A stretch of DNA of 64,000 bases, taken from NCBI GenBank assembly GCA_020444325.1, contig JAHLLD010000013.1, positions 62,001 through 126,000 of the forward strand, read 5' to 3'. Positions within the stretch are counted from its first letter, which is position 1. Every line of letters starts with the position of its first letter. The position numbers and the translations under genes were made by a program. The notes under the pieces are model-generated. The model ran no database searches. It was given only the letters and a program-made list of their open reading frames with translations, and had not been told where the DNA came from. Shown piece by piece: positions 56,671 through 64,000 of the stretch. This DNA is from a bacterium. GTDB taxonomy: Bacteria; Bacteroidota; Ignavibacteria; SZUA-365.

Positions 56671-56822
56671 GGAATGCGATTGATCTGGTGAGCGCGAAGA
56701 CACCAAGACGCGAAGACACGGAGGGGCGTTCATAAAGAGGAGGAATCGAGGGGAATGCGTCAAGAATTTGAGATGGATTCTTTATGTTTACTGCACGCAA
56801 CAATCCAGCACCTGCACAGGCG
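56671..56822. other. Intergenic region with a CGCGAAGACAC direct repeat
   Basis: CGCGAAGACAC occurs at 56693-56703 and 56709-56719, in the context AGACACCAAGACGCGAAGACACGGAGG. Such ACACGAAG-like intergenic runs are dispersed in many bacterial genomes and on the opposite strand give spurious peptides such as RVLVSSR. A ribosome-site-like AGAGGAGG lies a little further on. Confidence 0.6.
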
Positions 56823-57863
56823 ATGATGATGACAAGCCCCGTTTCACTTACGACATGGACAGCAAGGGTCCTCAGGGCCGTATTCTTCAGTGCCCTGCTG
56901 CCTGCGCTGCTGCAGGCACAGGACGTGGAGTTCAGCGGATTCGGCGCAACCGGCGTGCGGATATATGACAGGAACCCCGTCGCGGAATTCAATCAGGATT
57001 ATTTCTACGAAGGGAAACTCCAGGCCGATATTTCGCTTTCCAAGGACATTGAAGCCCAGTTGGACTTTCGAGGGAAATCCGATGAGCGCGAAGTGGTACT
57101 GCGTGAGTTCTCCGTCAAATTCGAGTATTTCAGATACGCACGCGTCAAGATTGGCAACGTGAAGAAACCCTACAGTATTGAGGGGCTGGCTGATCGCGAT
57201 GAATATATCCCTGTATTCGACAGCTATATCCATCGGCGTAACGAGCAGCTGGGCTATGCGGGCCGAAATGTCGGACTGCTGGTTTATTACAATTACAAAG
57301 ACAAACGTCCCGAATTTCCATTCTCCTACGCTGCCGGCGTGTTCCGCAACAACTCCTACGTGACCAGCGCCTATGCCAGGGGAAGCTGGCACAGCAACGC
57401 GTTCATCGCATCACTTGGTTATGCCCTGCTCTCGCGCTCGGGTGACGACGCCATCACCACGCATGGTTTCTCGGCTGATGCCGGGCTTGTCGGGAAATGG
57501 GCGGAGTCAAGACTCGAATTGTTCTACGCGCAGGATCCGGAAGAAGGAATCCGCCGCAGACTGATGAATCAGGATCCTTCGGTCAATACCATGGGACTCC
57601 GTTCCCTCTCCGCATTGCGTTTCGACATCGACGGTGATGTGGTTGAGATGCTTGAACCGCATCTGATGGTTACCTGGTACGCACCGGATGCGGAAACGAC
57701 GGAATACCATACCCTCGAAATTCTGCTCGGTATCAATGTATTCCTTGACGACGATGTGCGCCTGCGACTCGCTGCAGACGGCCTGCTGACCAAGGACAGG
57801 TATTCCGACAGCTACAGCACCCACGGTTCCGTGTTCGCAACTGAAGTGTTCGTGCGTTTCTGA
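56823..57863 (+). CDS. Porin-like (OprO/P-type) outer-membrane protein
   Basis: A 346-residue exported protein from the Met run at 56823; a Met at 56784 gives a longer but less typical signal peptide. The signal ends LLPALLQAQ-D. The mature part has an OprO/OprP-like opening (EFSGFGATGVRIYDRNPV...YEGKLQADISLSKDIEAQLDFRGK) and a GNVKKPYSIEGLADRDEYIPVFD segment typical of phosphate-selective or pyrophosphate-type porins. It is aromatic-rich and ends in FVRF, as expected of barrels. Its stop overlaps the next start by 1 bp. Confidence 0.75.
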   Translation: MMMTSPVSLTTWTARVLRAVFFSALLPALLQAQDVEFSGFGATGVRIYDRNPVAEFNQDYFYEGKLQADISLSKDIEAQLDFRGKSDEREVVLREFSVKFEYFRYARVKIGNVKKPYSIEGLADRDEYIPVFDSYIHRRNEQLGYAGRNVGLLVYYNYKDKRPEFPFSYAAGVFRNNSYVTSAYARGSWHSNAFIASLGYALLSRSGDDAITTHGFSADAGLVGKWAESRLELFYAQDPEEGIRRRLMNQDPSVNTMGLRSLSALRFDIDGDVVEMLEPHLMVTWYAPDAETTEYHTLEILLGINVFLDDDVRLRLAADGLLTKDRYSDSYSTHGSVFATEVFVRF

Positions 57864-59020
57864 TGCGCAGGCTGAAGATCATAGCGAGTGCGTTACTCAC
57901 GGCGAGCGTTGTCCTGTTGCTTGCATCGTGCGATACAGTCAACGACAGCAATCCCGCCTCCGCGATCACCGACATTCCGGTGCTGGATGCATATATCCCT
58001 CCGGATCGGTACGCCGAGCTCCTCAGCAACCGCTGGAGCGACGAAGAGGCGGCAATCGATATTTTCGTGGGGAGTACGCAGTACCGTGGCAGCGTCGAAC
58101 CGCAGGGAGCCGGATCCCGCTATCACAGCCGCTGGTCGTTCAAACTTGAGCTCGATGACGACAGTCCGCTTCTTTCCGGCCTGCGCACCAGCAATCTCAG
58201 CGCACAGACTTTTGATCGGAGCCGCCTGCGCACCATGCTCGCCACAGAGGTGTTTGCCGCCATGGGGTTCCCTGTGTTCGCATTCCATCCCGTCTACCTG
58301 AAAATCAATGGACAGAACCTCGGGCTTTACCTTCAGATCGAACGATTCGAGCATCCCTGGTTTGACAAGCATGGAGTGCCTGTATACGAACTGATCAAAA
58401 CGGGCTTCGGGGCGCGCTTCACGTACGATGGCGGCCTGCATCTCGCGCAGTTCTTCCGTAAGGAAATCCCCGACGACGACAACCTGAACTCCTTCGGCGA
58501 TTTTATTCACGCTCTCGACAAAGCCGATCCCGATCATATTTTCGAGGATGTCGGTCCATGGCTCGATATCCCACAGTATCTCCGGTATCACGCCGCAGCC
58601 TCCGTTCTCAACCATGTCGACGGCTTCACGAACAATCTCTATTTCTACCGCGCCGCACCTGGCGCCCCCTACAGCGTCATTCCATGGGATTTCGACAAAA
58701 TCATGTACGAGGAGCACGAAGTCGGACTGATCGGTGAAAACGACATCATCAGGAAGCTTCTGCAGAACGATTCCTGCGTCACACTTTATAAAGACGCGAT
58801 TCGCCATGTCATAGACAGTGTCGTCGTGCCGGAAAAACTGTTTCCACAACTCGATGCCTTTGCAGCCCGCATTGCATCTGCCTACACCCTCGATCCGAAG
58901 CTCGGACAGGTGGGGGTTTCCCTTGACCATGAATCCAATCGGCTTCGTGCGTATCTTATAAGTAGATGCAATTATTTTCGCGCGAATCTCGACGCGATCA
59001 CTCGCCTTCCCCGAAAGTAG
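57863..59020 (+). CDS. CotH-kinase-like lipoprotein
   Basis: A 385-residue lipoprotein with lipobox LLLASC (signal MRRLKIIASALLTASVVLLLASC). The CotH features are a beta-rich N-part (RYHSRWSFKLELDDDSP), ARLRTMLATEVFAAMGFPVFAFHPVYLKINGQNLGLYLQIERFEH and the active-site-like PYSVIPWDFDKIMYEEHE. CotH-type proteins phosphorylate secreted or spore proteins. It overlaps the porin gene by 1 bp and lies 7 bp before the first PAP2 gene. Confidence 0.83.
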   Translation: MRRLKIIASALLTASVVLLLASCDTVNDSNPASAITDIPVLDAYIPPDRYAELLSNRWSDEEAAIDIFVGSTQYRGSVEPQGAGSRYHSRWSFKLELDDDSPLLSGLRTSNLSAQTFDRSRLRTMLATEVFAAMGFPVFAFHPVYLKINGQNLGLYLQIERFEHPWFDKHGVPVYELIKTGFGARFTYDGGLHLAQFFRKEIPDDDNLNSFGDFIHALDKADPDHIFEDVGPWLDIPQYLRYHAAASVLNHVDGFTNNLYFYRAAPGAPYSVIPWDFDKIMYEEHEVGLIGENDIIRKLLQNDSCVTLYKDAIRHVIDSVVVPEKLFPQLDAFAARIASAYTLDPKLGQVGVSLDHESNRLRAYLISRCNYFRANLDAITRLPRK

Positions 59021-59027
59021 TACGAAC

Positions 59028-59894
59028 GTGAATACAGCACAGCAAGGTTGTTTCTCCCGGCATGCAGGACTCCTGGTTCTGCTGCTTCTGCTGTTCTCAC
59101 CCGTACTCAATGCACAGTACCGTGAATCCCCGACAAAGGCAGTCCGCCTGTACAACCATGTCACGGATGCAGCGGAGGACGTCTTCTCGTGGTACGATGC
59201 CCCCATCTATCTCGTGTACCTCGTCAACAGGTATGATTTTATTCCGCAGGACGACAAACCGATTATCCTGCAGGCCTCCGCGGCGGAGGAGGAACTCGCC
59301 CGCAGCGTTGCGGCGCCAGGAGGCTCTCCCGGCAGCATGGATCCGTTCACCATCCCGCATATTCTGCTGGCCGGGAGGCTGGCATGGTGTACGGTCACCG
59401 AACTCACACAGGACCAGGCGGATACCCGTCCCGCACTGCGGCACACGCTCGGGATGTACAAGGCTCTCATCTACACCCAGGTGAGCACGCAGATGGCCAA
59501 GAACCTCATTTCCCGCGACCGTCCCGACCGTTCAGATAACAAGAGTTTCTTCAGCGGACACACCTCGACAACCTTCGCCGTCGCCAGCTACCTGCAGCGT
59601 GAACTCGATGCATCCATCATGCACTCGGCCTCGCTGGCAACGCAGCCGCTGCTCCGTTCACTGCTGCGCACGGCGGCCTTCTCGGTGCCTTACGGCTGGG
59701 CCACGTACGTGGGATACAGCCGCATGCGCGACAACCGTCATTACCTCGTTGATGTGCTTGTCGGTGCGGCCATCGGCACACTGATCGGCAATGTCATTTA
59801 TAACGAGGTCGCTGACGACGAACAGCGGCTGCCGGTTATTGGACTCGCATTTGCCGGAGATACACCCGCCCTTTCGCTGCAGCTACAATTCTGA
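59028..59894 (+). CDS. PAP2-family membrane phosphatase, copy 1
   Basis: A 288-residue protein beginning at a GTG (59028) with a signal-like N-terminus. All PAP2 motifs are present: KNLISRDRP (KxxxxxxRP), FFSGHTSTTFA (SGH) and GYSRMRDNRHYLVDVLVG (SRxxxxxHxxxD). It could hydrolyse undecaprenyl pyrophosphate or lipid phosphates on the periplasmic side. It is homologous to the next gene, which suggests a tandem duplication. Confidence 0.85.
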   Translation: MNTAQQGCFSRHAGLLVLLLLLFSPVLNAQYRESPTKAVRLYNHVTDAAEDVFSWYDAPIYLVYLVNRYDFIPQDDKPIILQASAAEEELARSVAAPGGSPGSMDPFTIPHILLAGRLAWCTVTELTQDQADTRPALRHTLGMYKALIYTQVSTQMAKNLISRDRPDRSDNKSFFSGHTSTTFAVASYLQRELDASIMHSASLATQPLLRSLLRTAAFSVPYGWATYVGYSRMRDNRHYLVDVLVGAAIGTLIGNVIYNEVADDEQRLPVIGLAFAGDTPALSLQLQF

Positions 59895-59947
59895 CCATAG
59901 ACGTGGATTTGCCTTTCCCCCTGCTTCCACAGTTGCGATACTTCGGT

Positions 59948-60790
59948 ATGCCCAAAATCGTCGCACTTCTCATTTTTCTTCCGCTACTCTCTGCCGCTGC
60001 TATTGCACAGCAGCGCGATGGAACGTTGCAGCGGCTGACGGAAGACATCAGTACATCCGTGTCGGATGTGACTGAATGGTACGACGTACCCGTCGTGTTA
60101 CTTTTCCTGGCTCGAAACAGTTACAAGGCGGACAATCCTTCGACGAAAATCATCTCCCTCCCTCCCCTGTCTTTTGAGCGCGAACTTGCCACGCAATTCC
60201 CCGCAACCTCATCCGCCTCTCCCGGGAGTATGGATTCCTGGCTGCTCCCGAACCTGATTTTCACATCGCGCCTTCTCTATGCGGTTGGGAACAACCTGAC
60301 GGGTGAAGCGGATATGCGCAATACCTATGCGCATGCGTGGACGTTCTATAAAGTGCTCATGTACAATCACATCGCCACAGAGCTGATCAAGAACACCGTA
60401 AGACGAAGCAGGCCTGACGAGACAGATACGAAAAGTTTTTTCAGCGGACATACTTCCACGGCCTTTGCAACGAGTTCTTTTCTCGCACGTGAAATCTCCG
60501 ATGCCATTGCCGGCTGGGATGCCGTACAAGACGACGGCACGCTGCGCATTTCGCTGCAAAGCGCGACCTACGTTCTCCTCTACGGCTGGGCAGGATATGT
60601 AGGATACAGCCGCATGGCTGACAACAAGCATTATCTCACGGACGTACTTGTCGGTGCGCTCGTGGGATCTCTCGTGGGCAATCTGCTGTACGACGCCTAC
60701 TTTACCGGGGAAGGGGTTGCAGGACTCCCGCAAATCGGTGCTGGTGTTGTGGGAGAACAACCCGCCATCACCCTGCTCTACAGGTTTTAA
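59948..60790 (+). CDS. PAP2-family membrane phosphatase, copy 2
   Basis: A 280-residue protein from the ATG at 59948 (MPKIVALLIFLPLLSAAAIAQQ), a signal peptide. KNTVRRSRPDETDTKSFFSGHTSTAFATS and GYSRMADNKHYLTDVLVGALVGSLVG carry the three PAP2 motifs. It resembles copy 1 over the whole length, including the N-terminal VTEWYDVPVVL segment matching VFSWYDAPIYL. Divergence of signal peptides suggests an old duplication. Confidence 0.86.
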   Translation: MPKIVALLIFLPLLSAAAIAQQRDGTLQRLTEDISTSVSDVTEWYDVPVVLLFLARNSYKADNPSTKIISLPPLSFERELATQFPATSSASPGSMDSWLLPNLIFTSRLLYAVGNNLTGEADMRNTYAHAWTFYKVLMYNHIATELIKNTVRRSRPDETDTKSFFSGHTSTAFATSSFLAREISDAIAGWDAVQDDGTLRISLQSATYVLLYGWAGYVGYSRMADNKHYLTDVLVGALVGSLVGNLLYDAYFTGEGVAGLPQIGAGVVGEQPAITLLYRF

Positions 60791-60800
60791 GTGAGAAAAG

Positions 60801-60841
60801 ACGCGTGCGCTACTCCCATGGCAGCACGCGTTTGACGTGCA
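60801..60841. terminator. Inverted repeat between convergent genes
   Basis: ACGCGTGC (60801-60808) and GCACGCGT (60834-60841) are perfect inverted repeats with an A-rich stretch before and TTT after. They span the 19-bp gap between the second PAP2 gene and the LamG gene, so the element may terminate transcription from both sides. Confidence 0.5.
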
Positions 60842-63800
60842 GCAGTGCGCCGTCGATATCGTCCGAAAGATTCCCATCCTGCCCGGGACATTCATCCATC
60901 ATCCATGATGCCTTCAGTCCGTCACGAGGCAGTTCCCCTTTCCCTGACCACTGCTCGATTTCTTTCGTGGTAAGCAGTCTGTTCCACAGATGGAGTCCTG
61001 CATAGCAACGGGTATGATTCAACGCGGGATGATAGTAATCGTAGTACGCCGCATCGAACTGCAATTCCTTATCGAACAGGAACCCTACCTGCATCCCTTC
61101 AAAATTTCTGTGCCAGTCGTAGGGAGGATTACGTGTAGTACGGATGGTATCGATAACCTTGCCATCGATAAACAGTCGCATGCGCCCTGCGGCTTCAACG
61201 AGCATGACGGCAGAATGCCATCCCGTATCGATGTCAATACTTCTGCGGTCGACACGCGTGTAGGTAAACATTTCCTCCAGACTGATCCAGCCTTCCGGTC
61301 GCCTGCTGTAATAAAAGTGTATGGCCTGCTGACTGGTCTGCTGGAAGCGTAACCCAATGGACGCATCGCCGAAGCGCGGCAGCACAGGCCGCATGCAGGC
61401 AAGGTACCGTCCCGCGAGAAGCTGCAGTCCCTTCGACCTCTCATCTGGCAACACGACAGACTTGCAGTCGGGAGTTGTCGCGAACCCCGGGATTGCGGAA
61501 CGGACGAGGGATGGGCGGTTCTTCGGTTCCCCTGAGTGGGCCCGTTTGTTCGCATTGAACACAATGGATTCCACCGCGTTGTCCATGTTCCAGTATCCTG
61601 CGAGTTCAGGTGACTCCGCAGGCAGGGGCTGATGCATGGTCTCCCGAACTTCACTGATTGTGCGGAAACTGTGCCAAACGCGCATTTCATCGATATCACC
61701 ACGGAACAGCAATGCGTCACCCTTGTCATTGAGGTAATGGCTGCCCCCGATGGAAACATCCGGATGTGAAATTCCCTCCATGATGAAATCGGTGACCTGG
61801 TCATCAACCACCTCTCCGTTCAGATAGATGGCAATACGTCTCTGTGGCAGAGACACCGCAAGGGCGATGTGGTTCCAGCTGCCTGCATACAGACGCTGCC
61901 GCGGATCGATACTGAAACGGATAGCGGAGCCCACACGATAGTACAGACTGTTCAGCGTGTTGAAACCCAGGATAAGATCCTCCACCCTTTTATCACGTTC
62001 ACCGACATAGCCATTGACGAGCAGCAGGAAATTCCTGTCTTTCTCGGCCGGACGGAACCAGCACTCGAACGTGAATTCCCTGGAAGGAGCTGTTGCGATA
62101 TCAAAGGCGGTGCTGCGGTTCCCAAAGCGCAGGAGGTCATCCTCCCCATCGAAATGCAATGCATACCCGGATGCCAGGGGGATACCGGCGGCTCCCTGCA
62201 AATCCAAGTTGTAGAGTTCTTCTCCACTCCCTGCGTCCGATATGACAAGGCGCGCCCGTTTCTGTGGCGCTACGCTGAGTGGCGCAAACATGACGGAAAA
62301 ACTGTGCTGTCGGGCGGAGGCAACGCTCAGAATCCTGTCGCCGCTGTTGATATACCAGTCTGTTGAATCCGCCCCGGTGATGTTCAGGACGACTTCCAAT
62401 GGCGACGGCGTCATGTTCCATATATCGACGGTCCGCGTGAATCCATCCCCCAGCTCAATATCCCCGAACGGCAGTACCGGCTCACGAATCTCCTGTCCAT
62501 CCCGGAAACACCACGGGGTGTTCGCGCGTGGATTGTACACAATGGAACTGTTGTGAACGATGAGTCCGCGCGTCAACTCGAGGTTCGGATAATCATAAAG
62601 CGTTTCGTAGATCAGGTACCCGGTACCGACGAGAACGAAAAGAAAAATCAGTGACAGCAGAAAAATGTTGCCATGGAGGATAAAATGTTTCGCTCGCTCC
62701 ATGCGGCTGCGCGACGAGATATCGAACACCCCCGGAAGTTCAGGCAGACTCTGTACGTCAGAGACACCGATAACTTCGAGCATCCGGTTCGGGTATTCCC
62801 GCTGCATCATCTGCACGGCATACAGGGCAGCTTCGCGATGGGCCGAAGGGATGACGATTTTTTCCAATGGCGAATGAAATACGAGGCGCAGCTTGGCCTC
62901 GAGACTGTCCCACGCCCCGGGAAGGACAGCACCATCCTCGTCAATACTCGCTGAGCACGCGGTCGTTGGTGCAAGCTCCCATCGTTCCGGCAGGTTCTGT
63001 CGCTGTGTTCGCTCCGCGAGAAGTCCCGCGACCGCTGCAAGTCCAAGCGACCCGCCTACAAGTTCCGCACTGCTTTCATGCACGGAAAAATTATAGCGTA
63101 CATCCACACTGCTGTGCGGGAAGCGTGATGCGATGATGGAAGCGCTGAGAACTTCAGCGCGCTGCAACTGTTCCATTGTGTCGCGGCCGCTGTCGCCAAG
63201 AAGGTTGCCGAGATGACTGTCACCGGGTCGGCCCTCCTGCGCGATGACGTCCATGGGCAGCACACGTCCCGCCGAATACGTACCGTAGCTCTCTTCCTCC
63301 AGGAGGATGACGGAAACGGCGTTGCGCCGTTCACGGAATGCCCCCCACGTGGCCAGCGCCTGCGACAGGAGAGCCAGTTCCCCGTGTTCACGTTCGCGCA
63401 GAATCCCCACATAGGTTTCAAACAGGCCATAGCCTGTTGTGGAAGATCCGAAGATGCGCGTCCATCCCTCCGCTTCCAATGGCTGTGAAACGAAACCAAT
63501 GCCAAGCAGATAGGTATGCAGTTCCCGGAGACTGGAAACGAACGCGTGCGAAAGCAGTACCTGCTCGAGCGCCTGATTGAAGGCCTCGGGAAGTCCCTGC
63601 AGCCGTTCTCCCCAGGATTGCCTGCGCACGAGCAGCAGGAAATCGTAGGCATCTACCCACACAGAAGGGGGAAAACTGCGGATATAGGGAAGGCGCACCA
63701 GTTCAATAAAAACCGGCGCAAGGAAACCAATGTACCCTGAAAGCCATGAATCCGGCAGTTCACGGGTGTGGCTGAAGAACTGCGTAATAAGGAGAAATCG

Positions 63801-63902
63801 TTTCTGTGGGGATGAAGTCTGCCACAGGCTGCGCTCGAGCGCGCGGGCCGCAGCGTCGAGTTCCGCTGGAGTACGAATATACCCTGTCAGATTCTCCGGC
63901 AC
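60810..63902 (-). CDS. Lon-like (S16) / TM / ASH-like / double LamG protein
   Basis: A 1030-residue protein starting at GTG 63902. No ATG is in frame upstream, and no clear ribosome site is seen; an open frame that ends TGA at about 63976 may be the end of a preceding gene. Residues about 190-385 look like a Lon-type peptidase domain: VRYNFSVHE, GGSLGLAAVAGLL with candidate S285, then SASIDEDGAVLPGAWDSLEAKL with candidate K337, and KIVIPSAHREA. No AAA+ motifs exist. A single helix follows (about 408-431). Outside there is an ASH/Hydin-like beta domain (488-570) and two LamG-type domains (about 578-760 and 800-1000, with GYALHFDGEDD and TFECWFRP). The N-terminus should be cytoplasmic. Confidence 0.75.
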   Translation of the reverse strand: MPENLTGYIRTPAELDAAARALERSLWQTSSPQKRFLLITQFFSHTRELPDSWLSGYIGFLAPVFIELVRLPYIRSFPPSVWVDAYDFLLLVRRQSWGERLQGLPEAFNQALEQVLLSHAFVSSLRELHTYLLGIGFVSQPLEAEGWTRIFGSSTTGYGLFETYVGILREREHGELALLSQALATWGAFRERRNAVSVILLEEESYGTYSAGRVLPMDVIAQEGRPGDSHLGNLLGDSGRDTMEQLQRAEVLSASIIASRFPHSSVDVRYNFSVHESSAELVGGSLGLAAVAGLLAERTQRQNLPERWELAPTTACSASIDEDGAVLPGAWDSLEAKLRLVFHSPLEKIVIPSAHREAALYAVQMMQREYPNRMLEVIGVSDVQSLPELPGVFDISSRSRMERAKHFILHGNIFLLSLIFLFVLVGTGYLIYETLYDYPNLELTRGLIVHNSSIVYNPRANTPWCFRDGQEIREPVLPFGDIELGDGFTRTVDIWNMTPSPLEVVLNITGADSTDWYINSGDRILSVASARQHSFSVMFAPLSVAPQKRARLVISDAGSGEELYNLDLQGAAGIPLASGYALHFDGEDDLLRFGNRSTAFDIATAPSREFTFECWFRPAEKDRNFLLLVNGYVGERDKRVEDLILGFNTLNSLYYRVGSAIRFSIDPRQRLYAGSWNHIALAVSLPQRRIAIYLNGEVVDDQVTDFIMEGISHPDVSIGGSHYLNDKGDALLFRGDIDEMRVWHSFRTISEVRETMHQPLPAESPELAGYWNMDNAVESIVFNANKRAHSGEPKNRPSLVRSAIPGFATTPDCKSVVLPDERSKGLQLLAGRYLACMRPVLPRFGDASIGLRFQQTSQQAIHFYYSRRPEGWISLEEMFTYTRVDRRSIDIDTGWHSAVMLVEAAGRMRLFIDGKVIDTIRTTRNPPYDWHRNFEGMQVGFLFDKELQFDAAYYDYYHPALNHTRCYAGLHLWNRLLTTKEIEQWSGKGELPRDGLKASWMMDECPGQDGNLSDDIDGALLHVKRVLPWE

Positions 63903-64000
63903 GTCAGCGGCACCAGGGAGGCTGCGCGTACCTGCGAATTTTTCCTGAAGGCTCCGATTCCGTGAACATCATGCGTCAACCAGTGTCACTTTCATCGGTT

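Follow-up and report, generated by a model that had tools for sequence, protein, structure and literature searches.

A Lon-type peptidase domain without an AAA+ module in a predicted single-pass membrane protein encoded in a three-gene unit with an anti-sigma-like protein

The locus described here raises the question of what a protein may do in which a Lon-type peptidase domain without an AAA+ module is joined, through one membrane helix, to two LamG domains. The gene for this protein, here called C, lies near one end of the window (the whole stretch of 64 000 nucleotides that was analysed, G000:C13:62001-126000), and a first-pass annotation had read it either as a one-component transmembrane device, in which binding outside the cell controls proteolysis inside, or as a catalytically altered scaffold. 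Full-length homologues of C number 18, with identities of 30–66%, and 21 of 61 related genomes carry homologues of its N-terminal part; the closest named relative in a single-sequence query is from an uncultured Ignavibacteria bacterium MAG (66% identity over residues 5–440). The features of C and of its two partner genes, A and B, are collected in Table 1.

Table 1. Features of genes A, B and C; positions are those of the window, or of L006 where so marked
Feature	Position	Strand	Remarks
Gene C (Lon-TM-ASH-LamG-LamG protein, 1030 aa)	60810..63902	(-)	Intact ORF, GTG start
N-terminal helical domain, residues 1-190	63333..63902	(-)	Occupies the place of the AAA+ module in Lon
Lon (S16)-type peptidase domain, residues 190-395	62718..63335	(-)	Profile against PDB Lon, E 1.3e-9; hhalign prob 97.5%
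S285 in GGSLG, predicted nucleophile	63048..63050	(-)	Invariant 57/57; aligns with LonB active-site column
K337 in SLEAK, predicted general base	62892..62894	(-)	Invariant 57/57
Single transmembrane helix, residues ~408-431, predicted N-terminus inside	62610..62681	(-)	Hydropathy and family K/R bias
ASH/choice-of-anchor-D-like beta domain, residues ~474-570	62193..62483	(-)	Cep192_D4 E 7e-4, choice_anch_D E 6e-5; both below curated cut-offs
LamG domain 1, residues 603-752	61647..62096	(-)	Laminin_G_3 E 4.5e-17 (HMMER)
LamG-like domain 2, residues ~821-1030	60813..61442	(-)	Weak here, E 0.012
Gene B, 3' end (163-aa ZAS, anti-sigma-like protein)	63969..64000	(-)	Rest beyond window, L006:5969-6460
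Gene A	L006:6550-7710	Same as B, C	386 aa as called

Peptidase domain and membrane topology of C

Searched as a single sequence against the HMMER families, C of the window matches no Lon family. The profile of 32 homologues over residues 190–395, in which S285, G324 and K337 are invariant, matches 46 different Lon sequences with solved structures in the PDB, the best of them being LonB from A. fulgidus (1z0e), while the Lon proteins of E. coli and of mitochondria are reached with E values of 1e-4 to 1e-2. Alignment of the same segment by hhalign to the Lon-fold proteins of its own genome gave an E value of 7e-12, with an unrelated control profile at a probability of 0.1%, and single homologues match Lon families directly (L064 to LonB with E 3.4e-6 and L121 to Lon_C with E 0.008). 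Family searches matched no AAA+ domain in C, and a Walker A pattern run over the cytoplasmic part of the C homologues hit only one of them (L061), at a place inside the Lon active-site loop. The Lon-type domain without AAA+ noted in the first-pass annotation was thus borne out: by profile and dyad the peptidase segment of C belongs to the S16 fold family, and, because the AAA+ module is absent, C is not a member of the ATP-dependent Lon proteases (LonA, LonB and LonC) as these are recognized from sequence. The columns of the Ser–Lys dyad, S285 and K337, do not vary in any of the 57 C homologues, although the identity of their Lon domains falls to 18%, a degree of conservation that is hard to explain without catalysis. 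C is therefore predicted to be an active protease, and the intact dyad argues against the altered scaffold that had been offered as the other option.

The N-terminal domain has no relative in Pfam or the PDB; a match to 7unh (E 0.004) was set aside, as this entry is a designed protein. In an AF2 model of residues 1–440 built from a two-sequence alignment, the N-terminal domain is helical, with a pLDDT of about 80 over residues 10–110, whereas the pLDDT is 48.9 overall and below 50 in the Lon region. No usable match was obtained with Foldseek from this low-confidence model, nor with VIA from the poor models of C and A.

The window C has one strong transmembrane peak, at residue 413, with four Lys and Arg residues upstream of it and one downstream, and a strong hydrophobic helix directly follows the Lon domain in all true C homologues that are long enough to judge. 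More Lys and Arg residues stand before the helix than after it in 53 of 60 scanned sequences, a scan that took in three non-members and a few fragments. By the positive-inside rule, this bias predicts a cytoplasmic Lon domain and beta-domains that lie beyond the inner membrane, an arrangement that agrees with the single helix and the inside–outside layout first proposed. The LamG assignment also held: the second domain is weak in the window protein but scores E 5e-7, above the curated cut-off, in the orthologue L047.

On the other strand, two tandem related genes of the PAP2 superfamily (288 and 295 aa; 59028-60790, +) converge on C. They are preceded by a gene for a lipoprotein-like protein of the CotH-kinase family (E 7.7e-39; 57863-59020, +), and the order of the CotH-kinase gene followed by the PAP2 pair is kept in the relative L015. 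The 359-aa gene adjoining the CotH-kinase gene (56784-57863) has no Pfam match.

A conserved three-gene unit

The neighbour beyond position 63902 proved to be conserved: it is B, followed by A, and the order A-B-C is kept within the family of the window as well as in distant families. In the window's own unit the three genes lie on one strand, with intergenic gaps of 66 and 89 bp. The real start of A lies probably some 40 codons after the called one, since a terminator-like hairpin (L006:7666-7644) stands at the start of the called frame and the homologue in L015 begins later. Across 395 genomes, drafts all within the phylum, C was matched in 44, and in 38 after six weak matches (E 1e-8 to 3e-6) had been dropped as ordinary Lon, the one of these that was checked (L139) being a canonical Lon. 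A occurs in 52 of the 395, including 37 of the 38 genomes with C (Fisher p 1e-38), and the two genes lie within 5 kb of each other in 30 of these 38, with three of the other eight cases falling at contig ends. Mechanical gene calls overlooked some genes, such as A in L129 and L130, which were recovered. A few C genes sit apart from A and B. The notion of a one-component device was not sustained, as C belongs to a conserved unit with the ZAS protein B and with A.

Variations in the number of Lon-TM genes were also seen. Beside a single A-B pair, the Lon-TM gene is duplicated or triplicated in tandem in L049, L050, L051, L067, L124 and L125, as if several ectodomains fed one output. In L122 (G390:C24:9000-28900), four Lon-TM genes stand within about 14 kb, and the genome, G390, is one without a detectable A.

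B starts with a helical segment and the zinc motif H-x3-C-x2-C (HxxxCxxC) of ZAS proteins, which is present in the window B and most of its relatives, and a second conserved domain (LAA...RVxxD) follows. The best PDB match of the B profile is RsiW (E 9e-4), followed by the anti-sigma entry 3hug (E 0.19), which we take to be RslA, and NCBIfam searches with distant members gave anti-sigma matches, all of them below threshold. Judged from these matches, the zinc domain of B is of the anti-sigma (ZAS) type, and B is a putative inhibitor. The zinc ligands are lost, and the ZAS-like N-terminal segment is kept, in B of L120, L123-L125, L133, L137, L190 and L193.

A forms a family of proteins with a length of about 340 aa, which a poor single-sequence model (A of L015, pLDDT 44.5) shows as mostly helical. 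An hmmscan of 18 members against Pfam and NCBIfam and a profile search of the PDB found no relative. Sigma factors of its own and related genomes, at first 17 and then a larger set, were compared with A by hhalign; the best match, of DLAxD..AELF with region 2, scored above column shuffles and not above the reversed control. Because the reversed profile scores equally well, A is not called a sigma factor. From its genomic context, we infer that A is the regulated output held by B.

Ectodomain exchange and a proposed mechanism

The LamG domains had been proposed as the sensor of the protein; such an ectodomain is indeed present, while the generality of this layout did not stand, as LamG is the ectodomain of only one clade and an FG-GAP/beta-propeller type, the commonest in C proteins, is found elsewhere. 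The LamG-bearing proteins form a single clade in the Lon-domain tree, which the distant L071 joins (support 0.96 without L071 and 0.89 with it), consistent with one ectodomain exchange; the window's own family contains both types, with FG-GAP in L067, L068 and L070.

Where A lacks C, the next gene usually encodes a B of 440–550 aa consisting of a ZAS domain, a transmembrane helix and an ectodomain. In a comparison of profiles, the latter aligns along its full length, in 335 columns, with the homologous FG-GAP-type ectodomain that 34 C proteins carry (prob 100, E 1.6e-62). A profile of the FG-GAP ectodomain has matches in 46 genomes of the phylum, nearly all in open reading frames which, classed by size, correspond to Lon-TM or ZAS-TM proteins. 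An exception is a frame of 863 aa (L189:1549-4140, -) with a ZAS-like start, a transmembrane helix and two tandem FG-GAP-type ectodomains. On stretches with the Lon protein, B is soluble in all 33 A-B pairs, whereas on stretches without it B is anchored by a transmembrane helix in 15 of 18, the three exceptions being L193, where Lon lies elsewhere in the genome, L159, with a 498-aa B that has the matched ectodomain and a weak helix, and L154. The last (G152:C2) has A and a soluble-type B, and its genome has no Lon-TM protein at the threshold used. The simplest reading of this exchange is that the membrane link and the sensor have moved from B to the Lon protease, so that the sensor would act on B via the Lon domain.

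The occurrence of C in one operon with the anti-sigma-like B suggests that signals from outside switch genes on through the cutting of B. In the mechanism that we propose, C would be a single-pass receptor-protease, with its LamG/ASH ectodomain outside the inner membrane and a cytoplasmic Lon domain of the Ser–Lys type. At rest, A would be held by the ZAS domain of soluble B; a ligand or a change in the envelope, felt by the ectodomain, would alter the assembly of C, much as CalpL is oligomerized by a second messenger; the Lon domain would then cut B in an ATP-independent manner, and the freed A would act, most likely on gene expression. We give an even chance to this course of events, from a signal at the ectodomain through the cutting of soluble B to the release of A, in which the role of B as the substrate and the control of proteolysis by a ligand are proposed by analogy with known systems. 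Against it count the failure of A to match sigma factors better than the reversed control does, the loss of the zinc ligands from B in many genomes, and the C genes that stand apart from A and B or, in G390, occur without A. The wider proposal, which we hold more tentatively and rate somewhat below even, is that C stands for an undescribed class of transmembrane receptor-proteases. In these, the ectodomain would signal across one helix to a motor-less Lon domain in the cytosol, and the cutting of a ZAS inhibitor by that domain would release A, a member of a new family of non-sigma regulators, the ectodomain being alternatively wired straight to the ZAS protein in related genomes.

The Lon domain may instead be an active protease with A or another protein as its substrate, to which B would serve as an adaptor. 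The second conserved domain of B could serve such recognition, and B need not be the substrate in the A-B pairs that exist without Lon; against this, B is soluble beside Lon and held in the membrane otherwise, which points to B as the entry point of the signal, and in both precedents it is the inhibitor that is cut (PMC11417357, PMC10028731), so that we regard a substrate other than B as unlikely. A second alternative dispenses with cutting altogether: the Lon domain would be a switch, in which the ligand alters the hold of the Lon fold and the N-terminal domain on B, or on A, and the protein would stand in for a tethered ZAS domain. The plain ZAS-TM-ectodomain proteins seem to do the job with no protease in the same protein. 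Moreover, RadA and ComM-like proteins contain Lon-fold domains that do not function as proteases and would be precedents for such a switch. It is nevertheless distinctly improbable in view of the invariance of the dyad among such divergent homologues. That C is a general membrane quality-control or adhesion protein, which binds glycan or matrix through LamG or FG-GAP domains and degrades unrelated proteins beside genes that are there incidentally, is very improbable, for although these are general binding domains and several further LamG-like proteins occur in this genome, the operon and the co-occurrence are kept across most families carrying C and the ectodomain family of the FG-GAP type seems limited to this system.

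If the receptor-protease mechanism is correct, bacteria would have receptors with a cytosolic protease of their own, which pass an outside signal to gene control in one covalent step, with no need for a cascade of periplasmic and intramembrane proteases, and A, which about one-eighth of the genomes in the sample encode, would be a new output protein. That one ectodomain occurs in some proteins with a ZAS anchor and in others with a Lon domain is a natural experiment, which makes the mechanism directly testable.

Comparison with known systems

A literature search, in which most subscription journals lay outside the coverage, found no description of the layout of C, and its parts can be compared with several known systems. 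The membrane-bound archaeal LonB (AfLonB) has the peptidase fold and the Ser–Lys dyad in common with C, but possesses an AAA+ unfoldase and has no ectodomain. S16 proteases of the SepM/YlbL type have one transmembrane helix and no AAA+ module, as does C, with their peptidase and PDZ domains outside the cell, whereas the peptidase of C is predicted to be inside and its binding domains outside. In the DegS/RseA/RpoE system and other cases in which anti-sigma factors undergo regulated proteolysis, a signal from the envelope finally leads to the degradation of such a factor, as is proposed for C; however, the first protease domain and the sensor are periplasmic there and further proteases finish the process, while in C the protease would be cytoplasmic and is covalently tied to the ectodomain.

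Closer likenesses are found in CRISPR-associated cascades. In type III-E CRISPR, CASP-sigma is inhibited by Csx30, which Csx29 cuts independently of ATP (PMC10028731), so that a triggered protease frees a transcription factor by cutting its inhibitor, as C is proposed to do, although Csx29 is a soluble CHAT cysteine protease triggered by RNA. In a type III CRISPR system, the Lon protease CalpL, which has no AAA+ module, oligomerizes when its sensor binds ligand and cuts the anti-sigma protein CalpT, whereby CalpS is released (PMC11417357). Like CalpL, C combines a Lon protease domain lacking AAA+ with a predicted sensor and has two partners, one of them a protein of the anti-sigma type. CalpL senses cA4 within the cell through a SAVED domain, whereas C has a beta ectodomain across one transmembrane helix, an extra helical N-terminal domain and, in A, a partner that is no recognizable sigma factor, the Calp system having an ECF sigma factor in this role. 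No SAVED or CARF sensor was found on C, the C-terminal part of which consists of the helix with LamG or FG-GAP domains, and none of the neighbourhoods that were read showed a CRISPR context. PADLOC returned one weak CARF_LON match, over the Lon part of one C homologue. A reading of the locus as a defence system was set aside, PADLOC having given nothing for the window proteins. If the proposed mechanism holds, the CRISPR Calp cascade would be a single branch of a broader scheme that joins a motor-less Lon domain to exchangeable sensors.
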